Shown here: positions 1 through 21,253 of the stretch, piece after piece
How positions within the stretch are numbered: position 1 is the stretch's first letter
Layout: every line of letters begins with the position of its first letter
Source of the DNA: a virus
Strand: one strand, 5' to 3'
Virus record (IMG/VR): IMGVR_UViG_3300030329_003898
Span: 14,863-36,115 of that record
DNA: 21,253 nucleotides
Made by a program: the position numbers and the translations under genes
Notes under the pieces: generated by a model
Database searches by the model: none
The model's input: only the letters and a program-made list of their open reading frames with translations
What the model was told of the DNA's origin: nothing

Positions 1-3000
1 ATGACTGGTGCTAACGATTCAATTCTTTTCGGGTTAAGTGCTAGTACGTGGTTTAGACCATCTAATTTTACTAGAGGTTTCCGTATTTATATAGATAAGA
101 AGTTAGGCTGGAACCCAATAGCCGCTACTTTAGGTCCAATTGATGGTGGTAAAGAAGTTAGGCTTACAAGTGCAAACAATACCGCTGTTAGTGATTCCAA
201 CCCACAAATTGAAGTAACGGGGTTGACAGATGTATCTACTGCAGGTACTTATGCGGGGGCTAGTACTAACATACTAGAAGTTGGAATGGTGTTAGAAAGT
301 AATGATGCCGGCTCTAATCTTTTAGCAACTCCACTTATAGTGTCCAAAATTATTGATGATGGAACAAACCCCCCAATAATTAAGTTTAAAAAATATGACC
401 CTAGCTCAAGCGTATCTATCACTAGTTTTACACCGGATCAAGGGGCTGGAGATTTAGTATTTAAACAATATTCAATGAATGGTTTGAGTCCAAACTCAGC
501 TAAAAATATTAATTATTTTAACGATGCTAAGGGTTTTACTGGTCAAAATACGGGTACAGATGCTGTTGGTTACACTATAGAAATTCTCGAAGCAATAGTT
601 GACGATAGGTTACTACCAAGCAATCCAGCTATATGGGAAACAGAACCAAAAGAATCTACAGATTTAAATATATATTACGAGGCTAGTGGTTACAATCCAT
701 TTATTTTAGATAAAACAACAATAAAATCTGTTTTACCGATTGGCTCGAGAATTACAGTACCAGGCTCAGACTCTATTGAACCTGACACTGTGATAACTGG
801 TAACTCAGTACCTGATTATCCAACAGCAATAACTATAAGTACAAAAGCAAAAACAGATCAAGGTAGCCAAACCTCCACTTTTGCTACTGGTATAGCTATT
901 ACAACAGATACGCTTTTTAGAGTAGAAAGACCAGATGGTTCACAAATAAGTGTAAGAGTAGATATTGGTGGTTCAGATATATTGACTGGAGACCCTGTTT
1001 TCGATGGAAAAGTTTTTAGTATAAATCCAAATATATATACTAGTAGTTTTTGGTTAAATTGGCACAACTGTTATGTTTTTGGGAATGGTGTTGAATCAAA
1101 TAGAATTAGAGATAACTTTAATTTACCATATATAGGTAACGGTGTTATAGCTTCAACAACTTTAGCTGAACAATACAAACAAGAACATAGAAAACACGGT
1201 TTAATATATTCAGGTATATATAACTCTATTAGCGGTATAAATAATTTAAATCAATTTATACAAGCAGAAAAAATAACAAAAGATATAAATCCTATATACG
1301 GTAGTATTCAAAAACTACACATGAGAGATAGTGATTTAGTAACTTTATGTGAAGATAAAATATTAAGAATTATAGCAAATAAAGACGCTGTATTTAACGC
1401 TGATGGAAACCCTCAATTAATAGCAACACCAAACGTATTAGGACAGACGGTTCCTTTTACCGGTGAGTATGGTATATCTAAAAATCCAGAATCATTTGCC
1501 TCGGAATCTTATAGAGCTTATTTTACAGATAAAGTACGTGGGGCTGTAATGAGGTTATCAAGAGATGGTTTAACACCAATATCTGATGCTGGTATGAAAG
1601 ATTGGTTTAGAGATAATTTAAAACTAGGTGATAAACTAATTGGTAGTTATGATGATAGACAGGATCAGTATAATATAAGTGTTGTAAAAGAAACTTCAAA
1701 ACAATCGTTAATTCATTTGGGTAGAACTTCCTCAACTACAGTTAGTTTCAAAGAAGAGGTTAGGGGTTGGGTTAGTTTTAAATCATTTATACCTGAAAAC
1801 GGTATAAGTTGTGCCAACAATTACTATACTTTTAAAGAAGGTGTAGCGTGGCAACACCATGTTGAAAATAATAAAAGTAATGATAATCCTAGAAATACTT
1901 TTTATGGAATTCACACAGAGTCATCTTTTACTGTTATTTTAAATGATTTACCAAGTATTATAAAATCTTTTAAAACATTAAACTATGAGGGAACACAATC
2001 TAAAATAGATGAAAACCTCAGTGATAATAGCTATTACAATCTTGCGAATAAAAAAGGTTGGTATGTTCAAAGTATAAAAACAGACCAACAAGAAGGAGGG
2101 TTAAATGAGTTTATAGAAAAAGAAGGTAAATGGTTTAATTATATAAAAGGAAAAGCAATATCTTATTCTACAGACGGCCATATAACAAATAGTTTTGATC
2201 TTTTTGATGAGGGTGATTTTACTATTCAAGGTATAGGTGTTTTAACCAAAACCACAGCAAAAGGTGTTTATGGTTGTACGGATGATCGTGCTACAAACTT
2301 TAATCCAAACGCTTCAATTGATGATGGTTCTTGTATTGCTGCTGTGGATGGTTGTACAGAAGAACTAGCTTCTAATTATGATTCTTTAGCTACAAACAAT
2401 GATGGGAGTTGTACCTTCCCTGGTTGTACGGACAATACAGCATTTAATCATGATCCATATGCTAATACAGATGATGGATCATGTATACCAAGAGTTTACG
2501 GTTGTACTGATACTAGTACTTATACGCAATCATATACCGCGAGTGAGACAAGTACTAAAAACTCTTTCACAGCTATATACAATACTAACACTAATGGAAA
2601 TCCGCAAGCTAACACAAATGTAACATCAGCACAAGATTCTTCAAATCCTTGTATAGCCACAGTGCTAGGTTGTACGGATACGTTTGATGCTTGTTTTAGT
2701 GGTCTAGCAAACACATCATATCACCCTAATTACACTGGGTCTGGTGCTTGTTGTGGCGCTGCTACAGGTTGTAACGATCCATTAGCGTGTAATTATGATC
2801 CTGGTGTAGCTGCAAACGCTTCTACTAGTGGATGTGTATTATGTTCTGATGGTTTTCATAATGTAAACAATTTCTCTGTTGCTAGTACTAGTCAAGAATG
2901 TGGTACTGGTGAGAACGAGAACAAATCAAATTGTGAATATTGTGGTGGTCAGCATAAAGTTACATTTACAACTAGCTTGCCGGTTGAAATGATAAATGAG

Positions 3001-5502
3001 AATGATGTTTTATTGGTAATACAACATATTCAACCTAACGACGCTACTACAATGGGTGTCTTACCAACTCACCAAGCAGCACCAGTTAATAGTTATTATG
3101 TTACAGTTACAAATAAAGATAATAATTCAACTACATCTTATACTTTAGGACCAGGAACATCAGGTGTTGTGTGGAATGATGATATGAGTAGTTTTAGTAG
3201 TTCTTTTAACACATCTCTTTACACTACAGGGAGCGTATTACCAGCAACATACACAATAACTGGGTTAAACGATAATACTAACTATCAAATAGATTACTAC
3301 CCAGTTTGTAGTAACTCTGATGGTAGTTCTCTTCCAAATGGAGCTACTGGTGTATATACGGTTTCATTTACAACTCCACAAACTATAGTTTCTGGTTGTA
3401 CGGATGGTGGTGCTAACGCCACAGCTTGGAGCGGTACGTATCCAAACCCAGCCGGTGGAACACATAGTGCGTGTAATTATGATCCAAATGCTAATTTCGA
3501 TGATGGTAGTTGTGAATATACTTCTTGCTATGGTTGTATGACATCAGGTTATGTTAACTATGTTGCTACCAATACATTTACTGTTAACAATCAAACAGCC
3601 TGTGGTGATTTAATTGTAACTGGATGTATGATACCTACCGCTTCAAATCATGATGGAAACGCAAACGTACCTTGTACCACTGGATGTGTTGTTGATGCTA
3701 ATGGGCAGATGCAAACCGGTGACAACTGTTGTTGTAACCATGTGGTTTTGGGTTGTCTTGGTTTTGGTGCGACAAACTCTGGTGCTGTTGGCACTACGGC
3801 TGCTAATACAATACTTACCAATTCCTCTGGTAATATAGCCGCACTAAATTATGGTTGTGCTAATTCAACAGGCACTTTGAATACTCATTGTAACATGGTT
3901 ACTGGAGCACCATCAAATATAACACCTGCACAACTAAACACCAATTACGCTCCTCTTGTTACTAATGGTGTTGCGGCTAATCCAACACCAATAGTTACAA
4001 ATGAGGTACTTTCAACAGGTGAACAAGGGGTGTGTAACTTTACTGAACCTCAGTTTACCGGATTAAGTCAAATCGCATCTACTGTTTCTGGCGCTACCAC
4101 TAAGGATGTTGATATACAAATAATACTAGATCAAAACGGTACTCCATGGGATGGAAATACTGGAAATGGTAATTTAAGAGCTTCTGTTGCTATTCAATTT
4201 CATGATGGTACCTCGGTTGTTGGTCCTACAAACCTTGGTACTGTTGATATTGGAAGTGCTACATCGATATCATCAAGCAACGCTTTAACGCTTGCTACAA
4301 ACAATGGTATGACTACTCAAGCTGCTAACGCTACTATTGGGGTTTTATATCCAAATTGGATGGGTACTACTGGTCAAGCGTATGAAACAATTCTTGATGC
4401 AACTGAATTACAAAACGTAGTACAGGCTCATGGTAATACTTTAACTCTTACTGTTCTCGTACATCAATGGAACACGTTTACTTTAGACGGTAATACCTCA
4501 GTTAGTACTGTTCAACTTACAGGTGGTTGTACAGATGATACGGCTTCAAATTATAATGAGAATGCGAATGTTAATGATGGTTCTTGTAGCCAACAAGTGC
4601 TTGGTTGTACTAATAATACTTATTTCAACTATAACTCATCAGCAACACCTAACAATACTAACGCCGCTGTTTGCGGTGGACAGTGTTCTGCACCTACAAA
4701 TCCTATTAGAAGTATATTAGCAAACCCAAATATTTTCCAAGGTGCTTATAACTTACCTATATTCGCTATAGAGTGGAGTGGGAATGAAATGTTGTATGGC
4801 GAGCATAACGTTTATAATGGTGTTAATTATTCCGCACTAGATGGTATGGGTACCGGCGGTACTTTTCACACTACTGGTATAAACCCTTTGACTAGTTATC
4901 AAACTAACGGTGGAACTCTACCTTACGAAGACTTAAGTAATTATTATGGTGGTTATACTACTACCGCTACAACTGTAGCCAACCCGTTGGGAATAATAAG
5001 CTTTCAACTTGAGTATAGAATTAAACTAGCTAGTTCAACAACGTGGGGTGCTTGGCATAACCTCGCTGGTAATGTATCGAGTACCTCGGGTATGATTGCG
5101 CAGGGTTATGGTGGCTATCAACATTCTTTCACGCCTGGATTGACAATACCCGGCTTGACTCTCAAAAGTACCAACTGGGTTGATGATAATCAGGCTGTTT
5201 GGCCCGGCACCACGGGTCCAGTATCAATCTTTGCGCCAGACGCGGGTACTAATATAAATAATAGTACTTGTACTGGTTGTGGAGGATCAAGCCCGGCTTG
5301 GCGATGGAATTATCAAGATGGTTATAACCCTAATGATGAGTGGGAATTTAGAGTGAGAAGTGTATGTGAGAGTACATTAGGAATAACTGTTTCAGATGCT
5401 TCTACAGTTACATCATTTACTCAACCTGATTGTACAACTATAGTTAATCGTAATATAATCCCGCTTGGCTATGCCTCATATGCAGCTATAGGATGTGATT
5501 AA
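1..5502 (+). CDS. Giant phage tail/adhesin-like structural protein with Cys-rich GCTD repeats, possibly 5'-partial
   Basis: The reading frame is open from the first base and ends at TAA 5500-5502 (1833 codons). The ATG at base 1 may be the start or an internal Met cut by the window, because the first residues read like the interior of a folded domain. Residues 1-757 are Cys-poor (three Cys) and look like a phage tail or neck protein: a conserved-looking block around residues 440-570 includes the strings GEYGISKNPESFA, YFTDKVRGAV and LSRDGLTPIS. I recall similar strings in marine phage structural proteins, and they may relate to the tail stabilization protein of crAss-like phages (memory only). 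From residue 758 it becomes Cys-rich with repeated G-C-T-D...D-D-G-S-C units. Between these lie beta-rich, fibronectin-III-like stretches (about 975-1130 and 1590-1820). The C-terminal part probably extends from the virion and binds the host or its polysaccharides. Family assignment is inference. Confidence 0.75.
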   Translation: MTGANDSILFGLSASTWFRPSNFTRGFRIYIDKKLGWNPIAATLGPIDGGKEVRLTSANNTAVSDSNPQIEVTGLTDVSTAGTYAGASTNILEVGMVLESNDAGSNLLATPLIVSKIIDDGTNPPIIKFKKYDPSSSVSITSFTPDQGAGDLVFKQYSMNGLSPNSAKNINYFNDAKGFTGQNTGTDAVGYTIEILEAIVDDRLLPSNPAIWETEPKESTDLNIYYEASGYNPFILDKTTIKSVLPIGSRITVPGSDSIEPDTVITGNSVPDYPTAITISTKAKTDQGSQTSTFATGIAITTDTLFRVERPDGSQISVRVDIGGSDILTGDPVFDGKVFSINPNIYTSSFWLNWHNCYVFGNGVESNRIRDNFNLPYIGNGVIASTTLAEQYKQEHRKHGLIYSGIYNSISGINNLNQFIQAEKITKDINPIYGSIQKLHMRDSDLVTLCEDKILRIIANKDAVFNADGNPQLIATPNVLGQTVPFTGEYGISKNPESFASESYRAYFTDKVRGAVMRLSRDGLTPISDAGMKDWFRDNLKLGDKLIGSYDDRQDQYNISVVKETSKQSLIHLGRTSSTTVSFKEEVRGWVSFKSFIPENGISCANNYYTFKEGVAWQHHVENNKSNDNPRNTFYGIHTESSFTVILNDLPSIIKSFKTLNYEGTQSKIDENLSDNSYYNLANKKGWYVQSIKTDQQEGGLNEFIEKEGKWFNYIKGKAISYSTDGHITNSFDLFDEGDFTIQGIGVLTKTTAKGVYGCTDDRATNFNPNASIDDGSCIAAVDGCTEELASNYDSLATNNDGSCTFPGCTDNTAFNHDPYANTDDGSCIPRVYGCTDTSTYTQSYTASETSTKNSFTAIYNTNTNGNPQANTNVTSAQDSSNPCIATVLGCTDTFDACFSGLANTSYHPNYTGSGACCGAATGCNDPLACNYDPGVAANASTSGCVLCSDGFHNVNNFSVASTSQECGTGENENKSNCEYCGGQHKVTFTTSLPVEMINENDVLLVIQHIQPNDATTMGVLPTHQAAPVNSYYVTVTNKDNNSTTSYTLGPGTSGVVWNDDMSSFSSSFNTSLYTTGSVLPATYTITGLNDNTNYQIDYYPVCSNSDGSSLPNGATGVYTVSFTTPQTIVSGCTDGGANATAWSGTYPNPAGGTHSACNYDPNANFDDGSCEYTSCYGCMTSGYVNYVATNTFTVNNQTACGDLIVTGCMIPTASNHDGNANVPCTTGCVVDANGQMQTGDNCCCNHVVLGCLGFGATNSGAVGTTAANTILTNSSGNIAALNYGCANSTGTLNTHCNMVTGAPSNITPAQLNTNYAPLVTNGVAANPTPIVTNEVLSTGEQGVCNFTEPQFTGLSQIASTVSGATTKDVDIQIILDQNGTPWDGNTGNGNLRASVAIQFHDGTSVVGPTNLGTVDIGSATSISSSNALTLATNNGMTTQAANATIGVLYPNWMGTTGQAYETILDATELQNVVQAHGNTLTLTVLVHQWNTFTLDGNTSVSTVQLTGGCTDDTASNYNENANVNDGSCSQQVLGCTNNTYFNYNSSATPNNTNAAVCGGQCSAPTNPIRSILANPNIFQGAYNLPIFAIEWSGNEMLYGEHNVYNGVNYSALDGMGTGGTFHTTGINPLTSYQTNGGTLPYEDLSNYYGGYTTTATTVANPLGIISFQLEYRIKLASSTTWGAWHNLAGNVSSTSGMIAQGYGGYQHSFTPGLTIPGLTLKSTNWVDDNQAVWPGTTGPVSIFAPDAGTNINNSTCTGCGGSSPAWRWNYQDGYNPNDEWEFRVRSVCESTLGITVSDASTVTSFTQPDCTTIVNRNIIPLGYASYAAIGCD
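2272..4665 (+). repeat. Protein-level GCTD...DDGSC repeat region
   Basis: The protein encoded by the first gene carries recurring units of the form G-C-T-D-x-x-A-x-N-Y/F-N/D-P-x-A-x-x-D-D-G-S-C, about 21 residues long. Units or clear half-units begin near residues 758, 784, 808, 834, 890, 923, 1132, 1509 and 1535. The clearest full units are at 758-778, 784-804, 808-828 and 1509-1529. Others have lost the second half or carry inserts. Paired Cys and an acidic DDG loop suggest small disulfide-bonded, possibly calcium-binding modules. Such repeats are known from large secreted proteins of marine Bacteroidota. The DNA copies are diverged, so this is an old protein repeat and not a recent DNA duplication. 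Confidence 0.85.
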
Positions 5503-7794: not shown

Positions 7795-7862
7795 AAGTAA
7801 AAAAAGCGCAAAAACTGTGATTATAAACACACATAAGTATAAATAATAAAAAAAACAATATT
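7795..7862 (+). promoter_or_regulatory. 68-base intergenic region with a candidate phage promoter motif
   Basis: This is the largest non-coding gap in the window. At 7817-7829 it contains GTGATTATAAACA, preceded by CAAAAAC at 7809-7815. The same 13-mer occurs at 18603-18615, again preceded by CAAAAAC (18594-18600), before the accessory cassette. Both copies lie 8-46 bases before an ATG and at the boundary between functional blocks. The TATAAA core is promoter-like. No convincing terminator hairpin was seen. Function is inferred from recurrence and position. Confidence 0.4.
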
Positions 7863-9781: not shown

Positions 9782-12700
9782 ATGTCTGAAGAATCTATTT
9801 TACTTATTGATCAAATGGAAGCTAATGGTGAATCACCAGAGGCTATAGCTGAGGTTCTACGAAAAAAAGAAGAAGAGGATAAAGATAATTTTAATCCAGG
9901 TGCTGATTTAGTTAATAAAATTAAACAACCAATTGGAAAAGGAACTGTTTTACCAAAAGAAAAATATACTTTTGATAAAGGGATTATTTATCGTGAAAAA
10001 GAAATTCAAAAAACAGATATTTCCGGTAAGTTGCTATATGATGAAAATAAAAACCCTATATATGAAACCGTACATAGTGTAGTCTCAGAAAAAGATGTTC
10101 CAAAAAACGTTTTATTAGATTATCAAAATTCTATAAAATCTGACTTAAAAACAGGACAAAAAGACCAAGGTGTTAAAGAGTTTTTATTTGGTGAAACTGA
10201 AGTTGATGTGGAACAAACAGATGTAATGAACAACATAAACACCTTTAAACCAAGCATTACTCAAGTTGAAGAAGTTCAAGACAATGTAAATCAAGAAATT
10301 GAAAATTGGAAAAACAACAACAAAGAGCTAGCGCTGTTAAATGATGAGATTAAAAACACACCTGTAACATCAATACCGGAATTTTCTGGCAACATGATGA
10401 TGACTGATATTGACGGGGCGGACGCTAGTTATTACAATACACAAGTTGAACAACAAGCTCAAGAAAAAACTGAATTTCGCCAAAGATTACTGTCTGGAAG
10501 AAATGAGATAGAATCAAAAATAAAAAATAGTAGAGTTGGGGATTATTTAAGAAAAGCCGCTAAATTATGGCCAAAAAACAAACCTATATCAGAACGTACT
10601 GATGAGTGGTTATTTGCAAATGCTGCTATGCTAATGCAGGAAGATGATGAAAATGGTATTTTTGAAGCAAACATAGCACAATATAAAGAAGATAATCAAG
10701 GTATTCTTCAGGTTACAAGAGGGGATTGGGAGAAACAAGAAGTTAAAAAAGCAGAGGAATATAAAGAATTGTTGACAACCAAACAAGAAGATAATCTTGT
10801 AAATCAAAATTTTTTAGCTGAAAATATAACTGATTTAGATATTGAAATAAATAATAAAGCAAATATTTTAAACTCTATAGATTATAGCACTTATGAGGAT
10901 TCTATAAAAAAATATGACGAACAAATAGCATTACTTGGTGATGTTAATGAAAACTCATCACCAGATCAAATAAACGAATGGAATAGATTAAATAACGAAA
11001 GAAACGTTGTTGTTGGTAATTATCAAAAAGCTTTTCAAGATAATTTAAAAATATACAATAATTTTATAGATCAAGTTGAGGATAGAAAAAAGTTGTATAG
11101 ACAATATAACAACACTATTCAATTAGATACAGAATTTAATAAAAACGGAGAGGACTTGGTGTCGTATATTAACATGATGAAACGTAACCACCATAACATT
11201 GCTGTAGCAGCAGCTTGGGTTGGTAGTTCAACTCTTAATATTATTAGTGGTTTAGAGGGTAAATACAACGCATTAAAAGAGCTACCTGAAGATTTATTGT
11301 TTGAATACTACGATAATGATCCAAATAATATGCCGGATTTAGTAAAGTTAATACACACTATTGATGGTGTTGATGACCAAATGCGGTATGTTGGAAAAGA
11401 TAAGTTTAATAAATTTATAGAAGATATAAATAATAGCGTTCAAAAACCAACAGAATACGAAGACATAAATAATCTAAGTGATTTAGGTGCTTTTGGCATG
11501 AATGTTATTGCTAATTTTGTCCCACAATACGCTTTGATGGCTACAACAGGCCCAGCTTCTATATATATAATGGGTGCAACTTCTTTTGGTAATAAGTATG
11601 ATGAAATGGAGTTTACAAACAGACAGGTGTTTGGTAGAACTAATTATACTTTAGCTGAAAAATGGGCTGCTAGTAGTATTGCTTTTGGATCAGAGGTGAT
11701 TTCAGAGAGTTTAACATATGGTGTTTTTAAAGCTAAAATGAAAGGGTTGAATACCGAGTCTCTTAAGAGGGTTGCAGATGGTATGATAAAAAACACCATT
11801 GAAACTAGTAAAAAAATTGCTAAAAGAACAATTACAAGCATTCCATACATGTATCAAGAAAGTGTTAGTGAGGTTTTTGCTCAAGTTGGTAATAACTTTG
11901 GCGATAGATATGTTTTAGGGAAAAATATAAGCCTTTTAGATAACACAAAAAGCGCTGCTCTTAGCGGCTTATTTATGGAGCGATCTATGTCTATGCCTGG
12001 TGTATACGCAGATGTTTCAAAGATTTTTTCCGGTAAAAATTATAGACAAAAAGTTGTTGAAAATAATGCTAGAAAAAAGAAAATAGAAAAACTCCTAGCC
12101 AATCCTGACTTAAATCCAAAAATACGAAACAATCTTGAAAATGAGTTTTTAAAATTAGTTGCTAAAAACGAGACGTTAATGGCTAAAAACGTTGAGAATA
12201 TAGATTTGATGTCTAATCAAGAAAAGGAAAATTTAATAAAGATAGACACAGAGGTAATAGAAATAAGAGCTACCGAAGACGCTGTTAGGAATGATAAATC
12301 TTTAAATGATAATCAAAAAGAAACTATAATAGAAGATTTAAGAAATCAAGAAAACGAATTGGAGAACCAAAGAGATGATATTGTAGTTCAATATGAGACA
12401 GAGGAAACTAGAAAAAAGAAAAAAGAAAGATACGAAAAACAGTTAAAACAAATAAAAGATAAAGTAAATAGGTTTAACAAACGTAAAATAAAGGATTTTA
12501 AATCTACTAATGATGGTGCTAGAGGTAGGGTTAAAGTTTTTAAAACTAGAGAAGAACAACAAGCTTTTTTTAACAACAGAATAAGCGAGCACAATGCTTT
12601 ATTACAAAAAGAAAAAGAAGCTTGGAAAGAAATTTTAAAAGATCCATCAAAATTAAATGAAGCAGATAGAGAGGCAATTGGTTTAGAAGAAGGTGGCAAA

Positions 12701-15700
12701 CTATTAGACCACCATGTCAATCAAATAAATAATTTCATTAAAGAAATAGATAGTCAAATTCAAGAAAATAATTATAACTCGCGTTCTGCAGCTAGAAATT
12801 ACGGTGGGTTTGCTACTGATAAGTATGGTGGTTTTGAAATATTCATTAATGAACAAAATTCTTTAGCAGTTGGTGGTAGAATAAATACCGCGGCCCATGA
12901 GTTTTTACATGGAGTGTTATTTAAATCTATAGGAAAAGATCCGGAAACCCAAAAAGCTTTAGGTGACGCTGTTATAAACTTTATGGTAGAAAATAAAGGT
13001 GGTTTTAGTAGAAGGTTTGCTAGAAGAATGGAACCATACCAAGGTGATAGTGAGTTTGGTGAAGAAATTATAACAATAATGTCTGAATCCATAATGGACA
13101 AAACATTAGATTATAATGAAAATTTTTTTACAAAAATTAATGATGTTATAAGACAACATCTTCAGAGATTAGGAATTATAGACATTCAGTTTAATACTGG
13201 TAGAGATGTTTATAATTTTATAAAAGACTATAATGCTTCTATAGAGAAAAATTACGATAGCGTTGCTATTGAAAAAATGATGGATCAAGGCGCTAAAGGT
13301 AAACTTTTAAGAAAAACTAAAAAAACTAAACCTACAGACCAGTTGATGGCTTCTAAGGAGGATGTTGGTTTAGTGGCTAGAGCTAAAAGAAATTTAAAGA
13401 AATACCAAGATAGCGTTACAGATAACAAAGGTGTTTTTATTAGAGAAGAATATAATCCAAACTCAGATATCATAACAGCTGAATTACCTGGTATGATTAA
13501 AGCCCAAGTAGATAACTATTTTAAAAGAAGACCCAAACTACAAATAGACAATTTAGCTAAAGAAGAACTACAACAAGAAATTTTATTTAGATTGTATGAT
13601 ACAACTAAAGAGGGAAAAAATGATTTAAACCGTTTTGATGGAAGAGGTACTCTTTATGGCTACTTGAATGGTAGGATAAAATATAGAATGTTAGATGCTT
13701 TTGAGTTTAATCCCACTATAATGCCAGATTTTACCCAACAACAACTTGATGAAGCTAGAGCTCAATTAGATGACGAAACCACAGAGCCAGTTATAGAAGA
13801 GAAAATTGGTCCAACACGTGAGGTTGTTGCTTTGGATAGTTTTGGTGAATCTGAATTACAAAACGAAATAAGAACAGATGTAAAAACTGTTGGTGTTGAG
13901 GGTGTTGAAAAGTATTTAGATGTTAAAAAAGAAACAGTAAAACACAGGAAGTTCATGAAAGATGGTACTGAGATAACTCCTGAATTAAAAGCTAAATATA
14001 AAGATGATGGTAAAAAACCACCAAAAGAGTTAAAGTCTTTACGTGTACCGACCGGTAAGTTTTATTTTATATTGGAAAAAGTTGCGGCTAAATATGGTAT
14101 AACAGACCCAATACGTCTAATAACAGAAAAAGATTTAGATACCAAGCAAAGAAAGTCTGCTCAAGATTACATATTATCCAGAAGAGATGAACATATTGTT
14201 TCGCTGCCCGAGGGTACTACAAAATCTGGAGATCCAACAGGTATTGCTACCACCGCTTTAGGTAAAGCGTTCTTCAAAAAGGGAGGTAGAACCAAATTTA
14301 AAACCACTGGTACTGGAAAGGGTTTGGCGGAACAAGCTAAGCAAAGAATAGAACCTATGGCTTATCTTGAGATATTTGGCTTAATACCAAAAGCAAGGGT
14401 AAATAATCCATCAGTTGATCCAGCTATAAGATCGCAAATAATACAAACCACTGTTATAGCTATAGATCAAGCCATAAGACAAGAAAAAGATGCTTTACAG
14501 TTGTCACAACAGAGAGTTGATAAATTAAAAGATGGTAAAGGTAAGATAATGTTTGCTAAAAACGAGTATAATTTATCCGAAGTCACAGAAGGTAATTTTA
14601 AAGATTTATATGTGCATCCTTTGGGCACGTTATCTAGCATACACAACATCGAGCTTTCTATTAAAAAAACTTTTTATAGAACAAGCACAAAAACCGGTAA
14701 AAGAGTTCCTTATAGATCCAGAGATTTAGACGCTATGTTTAGTGAAACGGAAACATATAGAGACGCTGGGGCTAGAGTTTTGAATACTTTTTTAGAATCC
14801 CACCCACAATTTAGAGATTTGATAAGAATAACTATGACGGGTGGTTTAGAAGGTGGGTTTTTTCAAACTAAAGATAACTTTAATAATTTAATCAATAAAA
14901 CTGATGTAAAACAAGAATATCTTGCTAGAAAAAAATATTCAGAAAAAGGGGCTTTATATAACAAGAACTACCACAAAAAAATAAACACTAAAGAGTTTAA
15001 AGACCAAAATGATGCTAGATTACCCCAGCTTTATAATTTCTTTAAAGCGGTTGAGGCTCACTTACAAAACTACCCAGAAGATGTTTGGATGTTTGAAGAG
15101 ATGTTATTAGACACTGGTAAGCAACAAAACGTGTTAACGAGAATTTTAGCTCCATTTTCTTTTTATGCTGTAGACGGTAATGGTAACCCAATATTTGATC
15201 AAAAAATAAAAGAAGAACATACTGATCCTCAGAATTTAATTGGCAAGGCTTTATTAGCTGGGGCTGTATTTAATAATGTAGATAAGGTTTGGAAAGTCGT
15301 GGGTAAATCTTACATGCAAGGAGCTATACTTGATTCAGATATAAATCCTCATGATAAAATGATTGATGATGCGGGCTTAAGCAACGAAATGCCACAAGTT
15401 TATTATGACAGAATAGTCCCAAGACTTCTTAGCGGTGAACTTAAGTTACCTAATGGTTATTCTTCTATTGTTAGACTTGCTGCTGCTGGAATTGATTTAA
15501 ATATGTATAAGTTAGCGGCTGAAGGTGTAACTATAGCTGAGTACTTTAGAGTTGAGGGTATGGAGGTTTCACAAGCAAACGAGTTAATAATAAAGCAACT
15601 CACTGGAGAGGTTGACGCTTTATACGCTGAAACTATTAAAGATATAGATATAAACCCAAAAATAAAAGAAAGTAAGATAATAAATAACGCTGTTAAACAA

Positions 15701-18586
15701 GGTAGAATAATGGCATCAAAACCATCTAACGGTATCACTGTTTTAGACTTTGATGATACACTAGCTACAACTGAGTCACTAGTTAGGTTTGTGGCTCCAG
15801 ATGGAACTAAGGGGACTTTAAACGCCGAAGAATACGCTAGTACGTATCAAGATTTATTAGCACAGGGATATAAATTTGATTTTACAGAATTTAATAAAGT
15901 TGTTAAAGGTAAACTAGCTCCATTGTTTAATAAAGCAATAAAACTTCAGGGTAAATTTGGTCCTGAAAACATGTTTGTATTAACAGCTAGACCACCAGCC
16001 GCTCAAAAACCTATATTTGACTTCTTAAAAGCTAATGGTTTAAACATACCTTTAGAAAACATAACGGGATTAGGAAACTCTACATCAGAGGCTAAAGCGT
16101 TGTGGATAGCTGATAAGGTTGGTGAAGGTTATAATGATTTCTATTTTGCAGATGACGCGTTACAAAACGTACAGGCTGTTAAGAACATGTTAGATCAATT
16201 CGATGTTAAGTCTAAAGTTCAACAAGCTAAAGTTAAGTTTAGTAAAGATATAGATGGGGAATTTAATGATATATTAGAAGAAACAACTGGTATGCAATCA
16301 GAAAAAGAATTCTCAGCCGCTAAAGCAAAGTTAAGAGGCAAAGGTAAGGGTAGATTTAATTTCTTTATACCACCATCTGCTGAAGATTTTAAAGGCTTAT
16401 TATATAGATTTCTAGCTAAAGGTAAAAAAGGTGATCAACAAATGGCTTGGTTTAAAAAAGCTTTATTAGATCCTTTTGCTAGAGGATATAGAGAGCTTAA
16501 TGAAGCTAAACAAGCAATGTGGAACGATTATAACGCCTTACGAAAAGCTATGCCTGATGTTCGTAAAAAGTTAACAAAAATAATAAAAGGACAAAAAGAT
16601 TTTCGTTATTCGGATGCTGTAAGAGTTTATTTATGGGACAAAGCTGGTTATACTATCCCCGGTTTATCTCAAACTGATTTAGCGAGATTAATAGATATAG
16701 TTAACAATGATTCAGAGTTAAAAGCATATGCTGATACTTTAGGTTTAATATCTAAAAGACCAGAAGGATATGTTGAACCAAGTCAAGAGTGGTTAGTTGG
16801 TAATATAATGTCAGATTTAGAAGGAGCTAATAAAGTTAATAGAGCGGAATTTTTAGCTGAATGGATAGAAAATAAAGATATAATATTTTCTGAAAAGAAC
16901 TTAAATAAAATAGAAGCCTTGTATGGAGCTAATTTTAGAGAAGCCCTAGAAGATATGTTGTACCGTATGGAAAAAGGTACGAACAGAATTACAGGTAGTA
17001 ATAGACTTGTTAATGCTTTCCAAAACTGGATAAATAATTCAGTTGGTGCTATTATGTTCTTTAATGCTAGATCAGCTGTATTACAGACTTTATCTACTGT
17101 TAACTTTATAAATTGGGGTGATAATAATATGGCTAAAGCTGCTATGGCTTTTGCTAATCAAAAACAATTCTGGGCAGACTTTGCATACTTATTCAACTCA
17201 GACATGTTGAAACAAAGACGTAAAGGGTTAAAAACAGATGTTAACACTGCTGAATTAACAGAAGCTGTTGGTAGATCAAAAAATCCAGTTATGGCTGCGT
17301 TAAACTATTTATTACAAAAAGGTTTCTTACCAACACAAATAGCGGATAGTTTTGCTATATCATCTGGTGGTGCTACTTTTTATAGAAATAGAGTTAATAC
17401 ATATTTAAAAGAAGGTTTAAGTCAAAAAGAAGCTGAGACAAAAGCTTTTGAAGATTTCCAAGAGATTGCAGAAGAAACACAACAGTCTTCTAGACCTGAT
17501 TTAATATCACAACAACAAGCATCTACTCTTGGTAGATTAATATTAGCATTCCAAAACACTCCTATGCAGTACATGAGATTAACTAAGAAAGCAATATCAG
17601 ATTTAGTTAATGGTAGGGGTGATGCTAAAACAAATATATCAAGAATATTATATTACGGAGCTGTACAAAATGTAATTTTCTATAGTTTACAATCAGCGTT
17701 ATTTGCATTAGCATTTGATGATGATGAAGACGATGAGAAAAGAGCTAAAACAGAAGAAAAGAAAATGAAAAGGCTGTATAATGGTATGCTTGATAGTATA
17801 CTAAGAGGTACAGGTGTTGGAGGAGCTGTGGTTTCAACTATAAAAAACATGATAATAAAAATTGGTGAAGAAGAAAGTAAGGGTTGGAACAAAGATTTTG
17901 ACAATGTTGTCGTTGAGGGACTTCAACTGTCTCCACCAATAGGATCTAAAGTTAGAAAACTTAGGAGTGCTGGAAGATCTTGGAGTTACAATAGAGATGT
18001 TATCAAAAAAATGGATTTCTTTGATATTGATAATCCAGTTTGGGACGCTGTGGGTAACGTTGTGTCTGCTCTAACAAATGTTCCTATGGATAGAATCGTT
18101 AATAAAACTAAAAATGTTAGAGAATCTCTTAATGAAGATAATGCTACTTGGCAGAGAATAGCTTTAATGTTAGGTTGGAATCGTTGGGATTTAAATGTTA
18201 AAAGTGATAAAATAGAATTAGTAAAAACTATTGTTAAGGAAGAAAAGAAACAAAAAGCTAAAGAAAAAAGAGACGAAAAGAAAAGAGAGGAAGAGGCTCT
18301 TAAACAATTAGAAATAGATAATACTATTAAAGAGGAGATTAAAGAAGAGAAAGAAGCTAAAGAACAAGGTAAAGAACAAAAGGAATACACGTGTGCAAAT
18401 GTTAATTCCAAAGGTAAAAGGTGTAGTATAGTTGTGCCTAAGGCTGGAATGAGATGTACAATACATGAAAAGGTTGAACAAAGAACTGATGGTAAAAAGT
18501 CTCAGTGTGAAAAAATTAAAAACGATGGTAAGAGATGTAAGATGCAAACAAGTAATAAAAGTGGTTACTGTTACTATCATGACTAA
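9782..18586 (+). CDS. Giant polyvalent/ejection protein with metallopeptidase, HAD phosphohydrolase and twin Cys/His motifs
   Basis: At 2934 aa this gene covers about 41% of the window. In order it shows: a charged N-terminus; hydrophobic helices near 473-491 and 583-603; a Lys/Glu-rich coiled-coil region (about 780-915); a zinc-peptidase motif H1039-E-F-L-H1043-G with a downstream EEIITIMSE helix offering a third ligand; a possible sigma-region-2-like stretch (1236-1310); a conserved-looking unknown region (about 1580-1960); a HAD-type domain (D1989-F-D1991-D-T1993, T2068, K2105, D2124-D2125); an unknown helical region (about 2170-2760) with a hydrophobic helix at 2624-2643; a Lys/Glu-rich helix; and two C-x9-C-x10-C-x2-H motifs at the end. 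Multi-enzyme giants of this sort are known as polyvalent proteins of phages and are thought to be packaged and injected with the DNA. Its place as third gene after a Gln/Ala-rich protein fits a T7 gp16-like ejection protein, though I see no lytic transglycosylase motif. Exact substrates are unknown. Confidence 0.8.
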   Translation: MSEESILLIDQMEANGESPEAIAEVLRKKEEEDKDNFNPGADLVNKIKQPIGKGTVLPKEKYTFDKGIIYREKEIQKTDISGKLLYDENKNPIYETVHSVVSEKDVPKNVLLDYQNSIKSDLKTGQKDQGVKEFLFGETEVDVEQTDVMNNINTFKPSITQVEEVQDNVNQEIENWKNNNKELALLNDEIKNTPVTSIPEFSGNMMMTDIDGADASYYNTQVEQQAQEKTEFRQRLLSGRNEIESKIKNSRVGDYLRKAAKLWPKNKPISERTDEWLFANAAMLMQEDDENGIFEANIAQYKEDNQGILQVTRGDWEKQEVKKAEEYKELLTTKQEDNLVNQNFLAENITDLDIEINNKANILNSIDYSTYEDSIKKYDEQIALLGDVNENSSPDQINEWNRLNNERNVVVGNYQKAFQDNLKIYNNFIDQVEDRKKLYRQYNNTIQLDTEFNKNGEDLVSYINMMKRNHHNIAVAAAWVGSSTLNIISGLEGKYNALKELPEDLLFEYYDNDPNNMPDLVKLIHTIDGVDDQMRYVGKDKFNKFIEDINNSVQKPTEYEDINNLSDLGAFGMNVIANFVPQYALMATTGPASIYIMGATSFGNKYDEMEFTNRQVFGRTNYTLAEKWAASSIAFGSEVISESLTYGVFKAKMKGLNTESLKRVADGMIKNTIETSKKIAKRTITSIPYMYQESVSEVFAQVGNNFGDRYVLGKNISLLDNTKSAALSGLFMERSMSMPGVYADVSKIFSGKNYRQKVVENNARKKKIEKLLANPDLNPKIRNNLENEFLKLVAKNETLMAKNVENIDLMSNQEKENLIKIDTEVIEIRATEDAVRNDKSLNDNQKETIIEDLRNQENELENQRDDIVVQYETEETRKKKKERYEKQLKQIKDKVNRFNKRKIKDFKSTNDGARGRVKVFKTREEQQAFFNNRISEHNALLQKEKEAWKEILKDPSKLNEADREAIGLEEGGKLLDHHVNQINNFIKEIDSQIQENNYNSRSAARNYGGFATDKYGGFEIFINEQNSLAVGGRINTAAHEFLHGVLFKSIGKDPETQKALGDAVINFMVENKGGFSRRFARRMEPYQGDSEFGEEIITIMSESIMDKTLDYNENFFTKINDVIRQHLQRLGIIDIQFNTGRDVYNFIKDYNASIEKNYDSVAIEKMMDQGAKGKLLRKTKKTKPTDQLMASKEDVGLVARAKRNLKKYQDSVTDNKGVFIREEYNPNSDIITAELPGMIKAQVDNYFKRRPKLQIDNLAKEELQQEILFRLYDTTKEGKNDLNRFDGRGTLYGYLNGRIKYRMLDAFEFNPTIMPDFTQQQLDEARAQLDDETTEPVIEEKIGPTREVVALDSFGESELQNEIRTDVKTVGVEGVEKYLDVKKETVKHRKFMKDGTEITPELKAKYKDDGKKPPKELKSLRVPTGKFYFILEKVAAKYGITDPIRLITEKDLDTKQRKSAQDYILSRRDEHIVSLPEGTTKSGDPTGIATTALGKAFFKKGGRTKFKTTGTGKGLAEQAKQRIEPMAYLEIFGLIPKARVNNPSVDPAIRSQIIQTTVIAIDQAIRQEKDALQLSQQRVDKLKDGKGKIMFAKNEYNLSEVTEGNFKDLYVHPLGTLSSIHNIELSIKKTFYRTSTKTGKRVPYRSRDLDAMFSETETYRDAGARVLNTFLESHPQFRDLIRITMTGGLEGGFFQTKDNFNNLINKTDVKQEYLARKKYSEKGALYNKNYHKKINTKEFKDQNDARLPQLYNFFKAVEAHLQNYPEDVWMFEEMLLDTGKQQNVLTRILAPFSFYAVDGNGNPIFDQKIKEEHTDPQNLIGKALLAGAVFNNVDKVWKVVGKSYMQGAILDSDINPHDKMIDDAGLSNEMPQVYYDRIVPRLLSGELKLPNGYSSIVRLAAAGIDLNMYKLAAEGVTIAEYFRVEGMEVSQANELIIKQLTGEVDALYAETIKDIDINPKIKESKIINNAVKQGRIMASKPSNGITVLDFDDTLATTESLVRFVAPDGTKGTLNAEEYASTYQDLLAQGYKFDFTEFNKVVKGKLAPLFNKAIKLQGKFGPENMFVLTARPPAAQKPIFDFLKANGLNIPLENITGLGNSTSEAKALWIADKVGEGYNDFYFADDALQNVQAVKNMLDQFDVKSKVQQAKVKFSKDIDGEFNDILEETTGMQSEKEFSAAKAKLRGKGKGRFNFFIPPSAEDFKGLLYRFLAKGKKGDQQMAWFKKALLDPFARGYRELNEAKQAMWNDYNALRKAMPDVRKKLTKIIKGQKDFRYSDAVRVYLWDKAGYTIPGLSQTDLARLIDIVNNDSELKAYADTLGLISKRPEGYVEPSQEWLVGNIMSDLEGANKVNRAEFLAEWIENKDIIFSEKNLNKIEALYGANFREALEDMLYRMEKGTNRITGSNRLVNAFQNWINNSVGAIMFFNARSAVLQTLSTVNFINWGDNNMAKAAMAFANQKQFWADFAYLFNSDMLKQRRKGLKTDVNTAELTEAVGRSKNPVMAALNYLLQKGFLPTQIADSFAISSGGATFYRNRVNTYLKEGLSQKEAETKAFEDFQEIAEETQQSSRPDLISQQQASTLGRLILAFQNTPMQYMRLTKKAISDLVNGRGDAKTNISRILYYGAVQNVIFYSLQSALFALAFDDDEDDEKRAKTEEKKMKRLYNGMLDSILRGTGVGGAVVSTIKNMIIKIGEEESKGWNKDFDNVVVEGLQLSPPIGSKVRKLRSAGRSWSYNRDVIKKMDFFDIDNPVWDAVGNVVSALTNVPMDRIVNKTKNVRESLNEDNATWQRIALMLGWNRWDLNVKSDKIELVKTIVKEEKKQKAKEKRDEKKREEEALKQLEIDNTIKEEIKEEKEAKEQGKEQKEYTCANVNSKGKRCSIVVPKAGMRCTIHEKVEQRTDGKKSQCEKIKNDGKRCKMQTSNKSGYCYYHD
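12890..13110 (+). other. Zincin-type metallopeptidase motif in the giant protein
   Basis: Codons 1037-1044 read A-A-H-E-F-L-H-G, a perfect HExxH zinc-binding helix with small residues before and Gly after it, as in gluzincin-type peptidases. About 60 residues later, GEEIITIMSES provides acidic residues in a helix where the third zinc ligand is expected. The segment before it (FEIFINEQNSLAVGG) looks like the edge strand of such a fold. The likely activity is cleavage of a virion or host protein, or self-processing of the giant protein. Confidence 0.65.
15731..16200 (+). other. HAD-superfamily phosphohydrolase domain in the giant protein
   Basis: All four HAD motifs occur in order: motif I D1989-F-D1991-D-T1993-L, with the nucleophile and general acid Asp; motif II FVLTARP with T2068; motif III K2105 in EAKALWIADKV; and motif IV YFADDA with D2124-D2125. 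The catalytic set appears intact. A phosphatase acting on nucleotides, sugars or nucleic-acid ends is possible; the substrate cannot be read from the sequence. Confidence 0.8.
18392..18583 (+). repeat. Two C-x9-C-x10-C-x2-H motifs at the giant protein's C-terminus
   Basis: Motif 1 uses C2871, C2881, C2892 and H2895; motif 2 uses C2909, C2919, C2930 and H2933, one residue before the stop. Spacing is identical in both, and each has G-K-R-C around its second Cys. Each unit can bind one zinc ion. I recall similar C...G..C...G.C..H units at the ends of unrelated phage and bacterial proteins. A DNA, RNA or protein-binding tag is plausible. Confidence 0.75.
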
Positions 18587-18623
18587 ATAATTCCAAAAAC
18601 AAGTGATTATAAACAAAACAATA
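18587..18623 (+). promoter_or_regulatory. Second copy of the candidate promoter motif
   Basis: The short gap between the giant gene and the accessory cassette holds CAAAAAC (18594-18600) then GTGATTATAAACA (18603-18615), matching the motif at 7809-7829 with one extra base between the two parts. It ends 8 bases before the ATG at 18624. It could drive the six-gene cassette. Its recurrence argues against using the GTG inside it as a start codon. Confidence 0.4.
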
Positions 18624-19724
18624 ATGGTGAAGAAACTAATAATATTACTAACAACAATTTTAATAGCTTGTACGGCTCCAAAGGAATGTTGCTCACAAAC
18701 ATATGGGATACAAGATGTAAAAAAACTTCTAAAGTTCTCTACATTTTATGCCGCTGTAAATGGTGGAACATCATTATCTGATGTTGATGTATTTTCTGTG
18801 GACAACGGATTGTCTACACAAACTATTTCAACTCCTTATGATTATAATTTTACTATAGGACTACGTAAGATAGCTAGATTCGGATACGAAAACAAAGCAC
18901 AAACATTTTACGATGGTACTGAATCAAACTATAGTGATGCGGCTACTGTAGGTAAGGTTAGAGGAGTTGAATATTTATTTGAAATAGATTATAAAAGACA
19001 AGAAGGGGTTGATTATATGGATCAACATCATTTTATTAGGTATAGTTCTGATGATGGGTGTGATGATGCTTTATGTGTTAATTTTTTCGCTTTAAAATTT
19101 GAATATTTAGAAGATGGCTTTGCAGATATTAAATATTTTGAAGCCTCAGAAAGATATAGACATAGAAGAAATAAAAATTTATCATTTAACATTGGCGCTT
19201 CTCATAGGTTGGCGGAACCATATGGATATGATCCATTAGACGAGTGGATGTTAGATAACGGTAATATACATTATACCTATTTAGCATTACAAGAGGGTTA
19301 TACTGTTGACGTGTATAGCAACGAGTATTACGACCCGACGGGCAAACTAGTTGCTACTAGCGCTGAAGTTTGGGAGGCTGTTGTTATACCAGAAGTATTA
19401 TCTAATTATACAGAAAAGAAAAGAAATGAATTATCAAAAGTAATACAACACTCTTTAGTTATGGGTTTTGATTACTATAAGTACTCTAAGAAAACATGGA
19501 TGCACGCGTGGGGTAATTTAATGCCTTGGCATTATAACGATGGCAGCGAGTTTTCTTATCATAACTATATAGAAGATGACCAGTGGTACGATTATTCTTT
19601 TGGTTTAATATATGGTATAAAACAAAACAAAAACTTAGGATACTTTGTAGAAGGTAAATACAATAAGTACTGGAATAGAGAGTGGTACGATTTTAAATTA
19701 GGATTAAATTACGTTATATTTTAA
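18624..19724 (+). CDS. Exported probable outer-membrane beta-barrel protein (phage-encoded)
   Basis: I start this gene at ATG 18624 (366 aa) rather than GTG 18603, because the ATG directly begins a clean signal peptide (MVKK then a hydrophobic run ending LIAC) and the GTG belongs to a repeated upstream motif. L13-I-A-C16 is a possible lipobox; signal peptidase I cleavage after the later Cys-rich stretch (CCSQ) is the alternative. The mature part is rich in alternating polar/aromatic strands, for example near LSFNIGASH, HSLVMGFDYYKY and YSFGLIYGI, and ends in strands YFVEGKY and LGLNYVIF with a terminal Phe. A C-terminal aromatic residue on an amphipathic strand is the classic signal for outer-membrane beta-barrel insertion. 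It heads the accessory cassette. Possible roles are masking or replacing a receptor (superinfection exclusion) or changing permeability. Family not recognised; the barrel call is inference. Confidence 0.65.
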   Translation: MVKKLIILLTTILIACTAPKECCSQTYGIQDVKKLLKFSTFYAAVNGGTSLSDVDVFSVDNGLSTQTISTPYDYNFTIGLRKIARFGYENKAQTFYDGTESNYSDAATVGKVRGVEYLFEIDYKRQEGVDYMDQHHFIRYSSDDGCDDALCVNFFALKFEYLEDGFADIKYFEASERYRHRRNKNLSFNIGASHRLAEPYGYDPLDEWMLDNGNIHYTYLALQEGYTVDVYSNEYYDPTGKLVATSAEVWEAVVIPEVLSNYTEKKRNELSKVIQHSLVMGFDYYKYSKKTWMHAWGNLMPWHYNDGSEFSYHNYIEDDQWYDYSFGLIYGIKQNKNLGYFVEGKYNKYWNREWYDFKLGLNYVIF

Positions 19725-19727
19725 AAA

Positions 19728-20006
19728 ATGGCAAAAGAATTAAATGAAGATACAGGTTTTAATATAAGTATTAAAACATTAATAGGTATAGGGTTTGCAA
19801 TGGCAACTATTATTAGTATGTGGTTTATGCTTCAAGCAGATATAGCTGAAGCTAAAGAATTACCAGCTGCTCCAGATCCAGAAGTAACAAGAATGGAATT
19901 TGATATGAAAGATCAAATGATCCGTCAAACTATTATGGATACCAAGAAAGATGTAGAAGAAATTAAAGAATCTATAGAAAAAATAGAAGATAAACTTTAT
20001 CAATAA
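19728..20006 (+). CDS. Small one-pass membrane protein with C-terminal coiled coil (holin/spanin-like candidate)
   Basis: A 92-aa protein starting 3 bases after the beta-barrel gene. Residues 1-15 are polar, residues about 16-36 form one transmembrane helix (IKTLIGIGFAMATIISMWFM), a short Pro/Ala-rich linker (PAAPDPE) follows, and residues about 55-90 form a charged heptad-like helix ending DVEEIKESIEKIEDKL. There is no cleavable signal. With the N-terminus probably in the cytoplasm, the coiled coil would lie in the periplasm. This shape suits a small lysis protein (holin accessory or inner-membrane spanin) or a membrane scaffold for the neighbouring exported proteins. Its stop overlaps the next start as TAATG. 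The lysis role is a guess from size, topology and location. Confidence 0.65.
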   Translation: MAKELNEDTGFNISIKTLIGIGFAMATIISMWFMLQADIAEAKELPAAPDPEVTRMEFDMKDQMIRQTIMDTKKDVEEIKESIEKIEDKLYQ

Positions 20007-20362
20007 TGAAAAATCCAATATGGAAAATATTTTGTGCTTACTTATTAGTTTTGGTCTTATTATTGGCTTGTGGAAATGCTTACGCGCAAATAACAGTAAC
20101 TCAATTTAACGCTGAGTGGAACGATGCTAATGAGGTTAGTTGGGTAAATAGCCTTGAAGACTGTAGAACTATTGCTTATGTAGATATAAGTAAAGACAAA
20201 GAGTTGCAAAAGAAACATAAGATAGCTGTTATACCAACTATTATACTATTTAAAGACGGTGAGGAGGTTGCTAGATTTCAAGCTGATCTTAGTTTTAAAA
20301 TGGTGGCAACAAAAGAAGAGGTACAAGAAGAAATAAATAATCAATTAATGAGTGATTTCTAA
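20006..20362 (+). CDS. Exported thioredoxin-fold protein lacking the CxxC active site
   Basis: A 118-aa protein whose ATG overlaps the preceding stop by one base. Residues 1-27 form a signal sequence (hydrophobic L-rich run, then A-C-G-N-A-Y-A-Q): either a lipoprotein cut before C22 or signal peptidase I cut after A27. The rest follows the thioredoxin pattern: FNAEW (34-38) aligns with the strand leading to WCGPC, VDIS (59-62) with the beta3 strand, HKIAVIPT (71-78) with the cis-Pro loop (P77), and IILFKDGEEVARFQ with the final strands, followed by a helix. The CGPC position reads N39-D-A-N42, so redox activity through CxxC is absent; one other Cys remains (C53). A chaperone, scaffold or binding role in the periplasm is more likely than disulfide exchange. 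Confidence 0.75.
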   Translation: MKNPIWKIFCAYLLVLVLLLACGNAYAQITVTQFNAEWNDANEVSWVNSLEDCRTIAYVDISKDKELQKKHKIAVIPTIILFKDGEEVARFQADLSFKMVATKEEVQEEINNQLMSDF

Positions 20363-20730
20363 TGTATACTTATAAAATAAAATTAGATAGAGTAATTGAT
20401 GGTGATACTGTTGATGCTGAAATAGATTTAGGATTTGATGTATCTATTAAAAAAAGAATTAGATTTATGGGTATTAATACTCCAGAATCAAGAACAAGAG
20501 ATTTAGAAGAAAAAGCTAGAGGTTTAGCGGCTAAAGATAGAGTTAAACAATTATTAGAAGGCGCTAATGAGATACAATTAAAATCTCATGGTGTTGGAAA
20601 ATATGGAAGATGTTTAGGCGAACTACATATTGATGTGGTGGATGGTAAAGAGAAAATGACTTTAGAAAACGTAAATGAATTATTAATTAAAGAAGGCCAT
20701 GCTGTAGAATATCATGGTGGTAAAAGGTAA
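20362..20730 (+). CDS. Staphylococcal-nuclease-like (SNase/thermonuclease family) nuclease
   Basis: A 122-aa protein matching the SNase fold. VIDGDTVDAEI supplies D15 (metal ligand, D21 in the staphylococcal enzyme); RIRFMGINTPES supplies R34 (R35), N39 in place of D40, T40 (T41) and E42 (E43, the general base); KYGRCLGEL supplies R83 (R87). The helix EEKARGLAAKDRVKQLL lies between them, as usual. Asn for Asp at the second metal position is common in this family, so activity is probably retained: Ca2+-dependent cleavage of DNA or RNA. It lacks a signal peptide and should be cytoplasmic, unlike its neighbours. Its ATG overlaps the thioredoxin-like gene's stop as TAATG. Degradation of host or competing DNA for nucleotides is a likely role. 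Confidence 0.88.
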   Translation: MYTYKIKLDRVIDGDTVDAEIDLGFDVSIKKRIRFMGINTPESRTRDLEEKARGLAAKDRVKQLLEGANEIQLKSHGVGKYGRCLGELHIDVVDGKEKMTLENVNELLIKEGHAVEYHGGKR

Positions 20731-20735
20731 AAAAT

Positions 20736-20822
20736 ATGAAAGAAACAATTTGTAAATTTATATGTAAAATAACTATGGGTGCAGTTTGTGTTGGTTGGTG
20801 TAAAGAGAAGTGTTGTAAATAA
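20736..20822 (+). CDS. 28-residue Cys-rich microprotein
   Basis: ATG 20736 to TAA 20820-20822 encodes 28 residues with six cysteines: C6, C10, C18, C22, C26 and C27, giving C-x3-C-x7-C-x3-C-x3-C-C. It is basic (Lys at both ends) with a hydrophobic centre (ITMGAVCVGW). It begins 5 bases after the nuclease stop, and its TAA overlaps the ATG of the next gene, so its location fits the tight packing of the cassette and leaves no untranslated gap. The i, i+4 Cys spacing would place Cys on one face of a helix, suited to metal binding, lipidation or disulfides at a membrane. I recall no named family. Confidence 0.6.
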   Translation: MKETICKFICKITMGAVCVGWCKEKCCK

Positions 20823-21253
20823 TGAAAAAGATATTATTTTTATTATTAATACCGTTTGTTACTTTAGGACAAATAAGTAATTTTCCTTGGGTACATAATT
20901 TTGATAACAATATTCCGCTAGAACAAGATACTAATGATTTTGGAGATTGGTGGTTAAAACAAGGACCAACCACCTCGGTTAATACCGGGCCAACTGGTGA
21001 CCACACTACAGGTTCTGGTGTTTATTTTTATGTTGAGTCATCTTATCCTAATTATCCCAATAAGATACTTACGGTATACACGCCTACATTTGATGTTTCA
21101 GCTACTCCTGGAAAAGTTCTATCATTTTGGTACCATATGTATGGTGCTACTATGGGTGATTTGGAAGTACACCTCGTTCAAAACGGTATTTTCACACCAA
21201 TAGATACAATATCGGGAGACCAAGGAAACCAATGGCATTTAGCTTATTACCCA
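20822..21253 (+). CDS. Secreted MAM-domain protein, 3'-partial
   Basis: An open frame from ATG 20822 runs off the window end (144 codons seen). Residues 1-16 form a signal peptide (MKKILFLLLIPFVTLG, cut before Q17). A MAM-type jelly-roll domain follows from about residue 27: FDNN...L, then DWW (43-45), NTGPTGDHTTGSGVYFYVE, a YTPTFDVS strand and LSFWYHMYG, with DLEVHL after it. The order TGP..DHT.G.G.Y.Y.E ... LSFWYHMYG is the MAM signature. MAM domains mediate adhesion and are frequent in flavobacterial secreted proteins, often with a C-terminal secretion tag that would lie outside this window. It is translationally coupled to the Cys-rich microprotein through TAATG. It may be host-derived. 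It could be an exported adhesin, a lysis-associated enzyme or a virion appendage. Confidence 0.8.
   Translation, partial: MKKILFLLLIPFVTLGQISNFPWVHNFDNNIPLEQDTNDFGDWWLKQGPTTSVNTGPTGDHTTGSGVYFYVESSYPNYPNKILTVYTPTFDVSATPGKVLSFWYHMYGATMGDLEVHLVQNGIFTPIDTISGDQGNQWHLAYYP

Follow-up and report, generated by a model that had tools for sequence, protein, structure and literature searches.

Does a tight run of envelope-related genes placed after the virion genes of an uncultured phage constitute a single functional system and, if so, what would that system do to the infected cell? This question is raised by the window examined here, a stretch of 21,253 nucleotides corresponding to positions 14863-36115 of a 36,115-base virus record (IMGVR_UViG_3300030329_003898), with the window end being also the contig end. 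A preliminary description had proposed that six genes of this window form one translationally coupled system involved in envelope remodelling, superinfection exclusion or lysis. The best overall explanation reached here, which could equally well prove right or wrong, is that of an exchangeable module that sends a surface protein, named CARGO, out through the type IX secretion system (T9SS) of the host and alters the surface of the infected cell at a late stage.

Organization of the locus

The cassette is preceded by genes encoding TerL, the portal, a scaffold-like protein, the capsid and further virion proteins. In its portal, the window phage shares 42-52% identity with Elemovirus, Maribacter phage Panino and an uncultured spring phage, and further matches were found in Cellulophaga and Tenacibaculum phages. 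The giant last protein of the structural block (9782-18586) had no Pfam or PHROG match, and it ends in two Cys/His-rich repeats (18390-18586; CANVNSKGKRC...CTIHE and CEKIKNDGKRC...CYYHD), which are possibly metal-binding.

All six genes of the cassette lie on the plus strand. The first, BAR (18624-19724), encodes a signal peptide followed by a predicted 12-stranded outer-membrane beta-barrel, and the second, TM (19728-20006), a 92-aa protein with a single membrane segment and then a coiled coil. TRX (20006-20362) combines a signal peptide with a thioredoxin-like domain (PF00085, E 7e-6), and it is followed by an SNase-like nuclease (20362-20730; PF00565, E 1e-11; PHROG 452) and by a Cys-rich microprotein of 28 aa (20736-20822). 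Finally, CARGO (20822-21253, open at the window end) carries a signal peptide and a MAM head (PF00629, E 2e-16). The genes are separated by gaps of 3 bases between BAR and TM (19725-19727) and 5 bases between the nuclease and the microprotein (20731-20735), or joined by exact TAATG overlaps at 20004-20008, 20360-20364 and 20820-20824. Thus, every reading frame, gap, overlap and coordinate of the preliminary description was recovered exactly, together with the motif in front, and its thioredoxin, SNase and MAM assignments were borne out by the Pfam matches given above.

Recurrence and exchange of a four-gene core

Relatives of BAR and TM were identified in large numbers, at least 537 for BAR and, in viral contigs, at least 436 for TM. 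In the BAR-ascertained loci where more than 3.5 kb of sequence follows on the right, TM, TRX and CARGO were all present in 51/51, and the SNase-like nuclease and the microprotein, whose position varies between loci, were present in 11 and 18 of them, respectively. The true unit is therefore the four-gene core BAR-TM-TRX-CARGO, and the nuclease and the microprotein are variable passengers. The six genes as a single unit were rejected on the same counts, so that the system first proposed holds as one envelope-biased unit of a Bacteroidota phage led by a motif, with the two passengers being optional.

The same association was observed from the side of TRX. For 46 TRX-centred loci that had flanking sequence, CARGO was always found within 6 kb of TRX, downstream in 43 and upstream in 3, although this set and the BAR-ascertained one are not fully independent, because many contigs are common to both. 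BAR was located upstream of TRX in 41 of these loci and downstream in 5, and TM always adjoins TRX. TM and TRX overlap by 1 base in 30 loci, and BAR and TM are separated by a single base in 28. Recurrence of both set and order in unrelated phages had been suggested as a check of the original idea; the set does recur, and the order is kept in part. Additionally, among 20 long contigs ascertained by their capsid gene, 9 had TM and 8 had BAR; the sole contig with TM but without BAR (G019) stops just past TM. Sorting tails were detected in 6/9 module-bearing contigs of this set versus 0/11 of those without the module, which may be fragments.

The core is also carried by phages whose structural genes are distant from those of the window. 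The window portal shares 22% identity with that of contig G207 and 17% with that of G212, and it could not be aligned to the portal of G201, whose terminase and portal belong to other families (phrog_2 and phrog_213, respectively). In these divergent carriers, the core proteins remain 53-72% (BAR), 75-91% (TM) and 41-67% (TRX) identical. Since the G201 terminase was absent from the other contigs tested, G201 is possibly a chimeric contig, and the other divergent contigs are independent of it. The module was also found in two MAG contigs (L088 and L090), which may be binned viruses. Taken together, the sequences indicate that the cassette is most likely a conserved, exchangeable phage module, located beside structural genes and common to uncultured phages of marine Flavobacteriales, and the four core genes very probably form a functional unit. 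Hundreds of uncultured marine viruses possess the four-gene set, with small Flavobacteriales of the ocean as their apparent hosts.

Other genes were observed around the core. A PAP2-family protein (PF01569; e.g. L016:11017-11544) and small basic proteins are frequent inserts between TRX and CARGO. In 13 loci, a second small outer-membrane barrel-like gene (L059:11687-12106, minus strand; PF13505 below cut-off) is found downstream on the opposite strand, near a ribonucleotide-reductase-like gene, and two divergent carrier contigs encode RIIA-like proteins (L438:16423-19203, minus strand, and L440:7907-10654).

A leading element ahead of the module

The element TTCCAAAAACAAGTGATTATAAACAAA is located at 18591-18617 on the plus strand, immediately ahead of BAR. 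A 27-nt position weight matrix (PWM) was built from 45 BAR upstream regions, scoring 28.9 at this site in the window, and was searched on both strands of 1.25 Mb of relatives. It returned 40 matches, 38 before BAR and 2 before TM; since most of the BAR matches belong to the training set, the informative part is that almost no matches occur elsewhere, together with the TM cases. In the same 1.25 Mb, the core pattern occurred 35 times versus 2-4 times in shuffled sequence, with 34 of the occurrences preceding BAR and the remaining one preceding TM in locus L041, where TM leads the module. The element therefore stands almost exclusively ahead of the first gene of the module, although the gene order varies, and it is best read as a putative promoter or leader. 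An in-frame GTG at 18603 falls within this conserved element; the start of BAR was assigned to the ATG at 18624 because, in the longer GTG frame, residue 8 is where most BLAST matches to relatives start.

The motif GTGATTATAAACA, which corresponds to the repeated promoter-like motif of the preliminary description, was found at 18603 and 7817, with the second, shorter copy (7817-7829) lying 46 bases ahead of an ATG at 7863. The search for sigma-70-type promoters was uninformative (47 found versus a mean of 63.9 in shuffles), and the Bacteroidota motif TAnnTTTG did not occur in front of BAR.

The barrel, the coiled coil and the thioredoxin-like protein

BAR had no Pfam match and no PDB sequence match, so its fold was approached by structure prediction. 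The AlphaFold2 model, obtained on 66 sequences with a pLDDT of 74, displayed twelve strands, in agreement with the barrel initially described. Its top fold matches were Tsx (Z 15.2) and the EstA autotransporter (Z 13.4), together with autotransporter barrels, and neither of the T9SS barrels PorV and PorP/SprF was among the best 50, although BAR may still be related to them. In this model, BAR is a predicted outer-membrane barrel of a common type, the fold of which is uninformative on function. At the end of BAR that bears the signal peptide (18624-18710; also L002, L005 and L007), a CxxPKxCCxQ pattern was observed, with CCxQ in 36/79 sequences; the same pattern occurs in one CARGO (L055) and is echoed in the Cys-rich microprotein.

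TM is the most conserved core protein, and its architecture of one membrane segment followed by a coiled coil was apparent in the alignment. Its gene differs from that of locus L003 by 30 synonymous and 8 non-synonymous codon changes and, judging from such codon comparison, TM is under purifying selection. As for TRX, the best-conserved part is the C-terminal half, and WNxxN (WNDAN in the window) is found where thioredoxin oxidoreductases have WCxxC. Among 78 homologues, none had a CxxC past the signal region, which upholds the description of this thioredoxin as dead, and a lipobox was found in 3. No match to BAR, TM or the MAM protein was obtained in 50,697 phage records, and the only match to TRX among cultured phages was weak and partial.

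CARGO: exchangeable heads and putative C-terminal sorting tails

The window CARGO begins with MKKILFLLLIPFVTLGQ, a signal peptide as judged by eye, and runs off the end of the contig, so that any C-terminal tail would lie outside the window. The 44 complete relatives that were aligned also have signal-peptide-like starts by eye. The heads fell into classes of 31, 12 (MAM) and 1, and Pfam likewise assigned MAM to 12/44. After the head come GCTD...DDGSC Cys repeats, then a conserved CYAWVISVDDYCCENEWDTICQ block and then the tail. What had been called a MAM protein does contain a MAM domain, and it represents the truncated N-terminal part of a large, probably exported protein in which MAM is only one head type and whose relatives bear a T9SS-type sorting tail. 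Cys repeats of this type are also present in secreted flavobacterial proteins, and about ten of them were observed in a large virion protein encoded at positions 1-5502 of the window.

Two kinds of tail were found. The canonical T9SS domain Por_Secre_tail (PF18962, TIGR04183) was present in 13/44 complete CARGO proteins, and the other 31/44 have instead a short tail at the C-terminus, ITDLLGRP...LLFYIYSDGTVERKLIK, which is not recognised by NCBIfam. The first, small alignments were too weak for a comparison of the two tails by hhalign and, hence, the comparison was made with more sequences and with shuffled controls. In that set, the shared motifs were in register with a score of 18.1 (P 0.003), whereas none of 20 column-shuffled controls scored above 12.7, the hhalign probability being only 10%. 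This offers a weak indication that the short tail may be homologous to the T9SS domain.

The short tail and the T9SS in host genomes

The short tail is also a host feature. With the form KLIKIVDLLGRE...LFYIYDDGTVEKKIIIE, it was found at 2-51 copies per genome in a single marine Flavobacteriales family, all 52 searched genomes of which (52/52) carry it (host genomes G021-G028 and G147-G195; e.g. L330-L349), which makes it a testable candidate for a secretion signal that has so far been unannotated. This family is that of one of eight MAGs chosen for holding CARGO relatives. When 119 genomes were drawn from the class, the short tail occurred in 4, namely the genome belonging to that family (G024, 22 copies) and 3/118 others, with 1-3 copies each. 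Among the eight MAGs with CARGO relatives, seven had 11-28 short tails each (E up to 0.05) and seven had SprA (TIGR04189), the eighth lacking both, and canonical tails were present in all eight (30-48 each). We infer that the phage hosts are a family of small marine Flavobacteriales.

In all 20 host short-tail copies inspected, the stop codon was at most 3 residues away. A simple hydrophobicity rule identified a signal peptide in 18/18 of the 5'-complete ORFs bearing them, the remaining 2/20 being open at the 5' end. In the initial eight host loci, a pattern gave 7 tailed ORFs, and a signal peptide was not evident in all of them within the sequence stretch covered.

Export of CARGO by the T9SS is probable, given that its complete relatives have signal peptides and carry C-terminal tails that are either canonical or like those of the host, and that SprA is present in 7/8 MAGs.

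Proposed function and alternative explanations

The T9SS builds surface coats, adhesins and secreted enzymes of Bacteroidota and, to our knowledge, is restricted to Bacteroidota and their relatives. In the proposed mechanism, the module would be expressed late in infection and its core products would be spread over the inner membrane, the periplasm, the outer membrane and the surface. BAR would be placed in the outer membrane, and TM would be held in the inner membrane, its coiled coil extending into the periplasm, in the orientation that we infer. TRX would act as a periplasmic chaperone or linker, and these three proteins would jointly help to place or anchor CARGO, which would leave the cell via Sec and then the host T9SS, followed by surface display. 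Such an apparatus, in which a barrel, a coiled coil and a redox-dead thioredoxin span the envelope and are shared by unrelated phages to place or anchor a T9SS cargo with swappable heads, combined with an unannotated T9SS tail borrowed by phages from one Flavobacteriales family, is put forward tentatively. In the last and weakest step, the infected cell would be recoated so that phage, either superinfecting or its own progeny, no longer adsorbs. Candidate gains from surface remodelling include receptor masking, exclusion, adhesion and release; recoating, with receptor masking as the favoured use, is the most likely role of the module, at somewhat short of an even chance.

The architecture of TM, in which a membrane segment precedes a coiled coil and which always adjoins TRX, would also suit an i-spanin-like protein in a module for outer-membrane disruption, the third step of lysis, that replaces spanins, with TRX and BAR as the outer-membrane partner and CARGO as a secondary addition. 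Consistent with this, no canonical spanin was recognised, and an M15 peptidase (PF08291; 23 loci), a 3TM holin (PF11351; 11 loci) and DUF5675 (9 loci) are encoded downstream in related loci. However, a lipoprotein partner is missing, with a lipobox in only 3/78 TRX proteins, CARGO is as constant as the other core genes (51/51 and 46/46), and it is not evident what a T9SS-tailed surface protein would contribute to lysis; this alternative is considered unlikely. The lysis role mentioned in the preliminary description was likewise weakened, since the M15 endolysin, the holin family and DUF5675 are found elsewhere in the region and no lipoprotein o-spanin was recognised in the core.

The surface protein could instead draw infected cells to new hosts or particles, resulting in adhesion or aggregation and not in exclusion. 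The swappable heads (31/12/1) are in line with such a role, as are the repeats that CARGO shares with secreted flavobacterial proteins and with the virion protein of the phage itself; on the other hand, it has no known binding partner and late display would leave little time before lysis, so that adhesion is also considered improbable. A further alternative is an ordinary hypervariable cargo island, namely genes that accumulated by chance where the late operon ends and that do not work together. This agrees with the way in which the nuclease, the microprotein, the PAP2-like protein and other small genes come and go, and it still holds for the passengers. Nevertheless, four genes that stay together across phages with unrelated portals, under a common upstream element, largely refute it for the core, for which it is very improbable.

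If the export and surface-remodelling reading is true, a widespread module feeding its own cargo into the T9SS would represent a viral route to rebuild the surfaces of abundant ocean bacteria, and many unannotated genes would be explained. Phage-host matching would also be aided, because the short tail marks the host family.

Comparison with known systems

Phage-encoded T9SS cargo is already known, and no earlier report of the envelope-spanning module or of the short tail was found in the open-access literature. 'Cryophage' encodes T9SS cargo comprising an endoglucanase, a GH39 protein and a PA14 protein (PMC7468147), and T9SS-tailed proteins are described in crAss-BACON cluster 2, near crAss-BACON genes (PMC6949934). 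Both cases have in common with relatives of the present module a phage product that carries a T9SS type A sorting domain and presumably enters the secretion system of its host (PMC7468147, PMC6949934). In the parts of the Cryophage report consulted, however, barrel, coiled-coil and thioredoxin partners are not mentioned (PMC7468147), and the present short tail is absent from NCBIfam.

Elemovirus, Maribacter phage Panino and related flavophages share the structural gene order of the window, in addition to the portal similarity given above, but in the Elemovirus and Panino records the late block finishes at the giant last protein, without the cassette. With spanins, the module shares a small membrane-anchored coiled-coil protein encoded beside an exported partner, whereas it differs from them in having no lipoprotein partner and in encoding a large barrel as well as a surface protein with a T9SS tail. 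The receptor-masking protein Llp of phage T5 is a single small lipoprotein, whereas the present module is multi-gene and envelope-wide and includes a large surface protein; what the two would have in common is the proposed role, the alteration of the host surface against phage adsorption.
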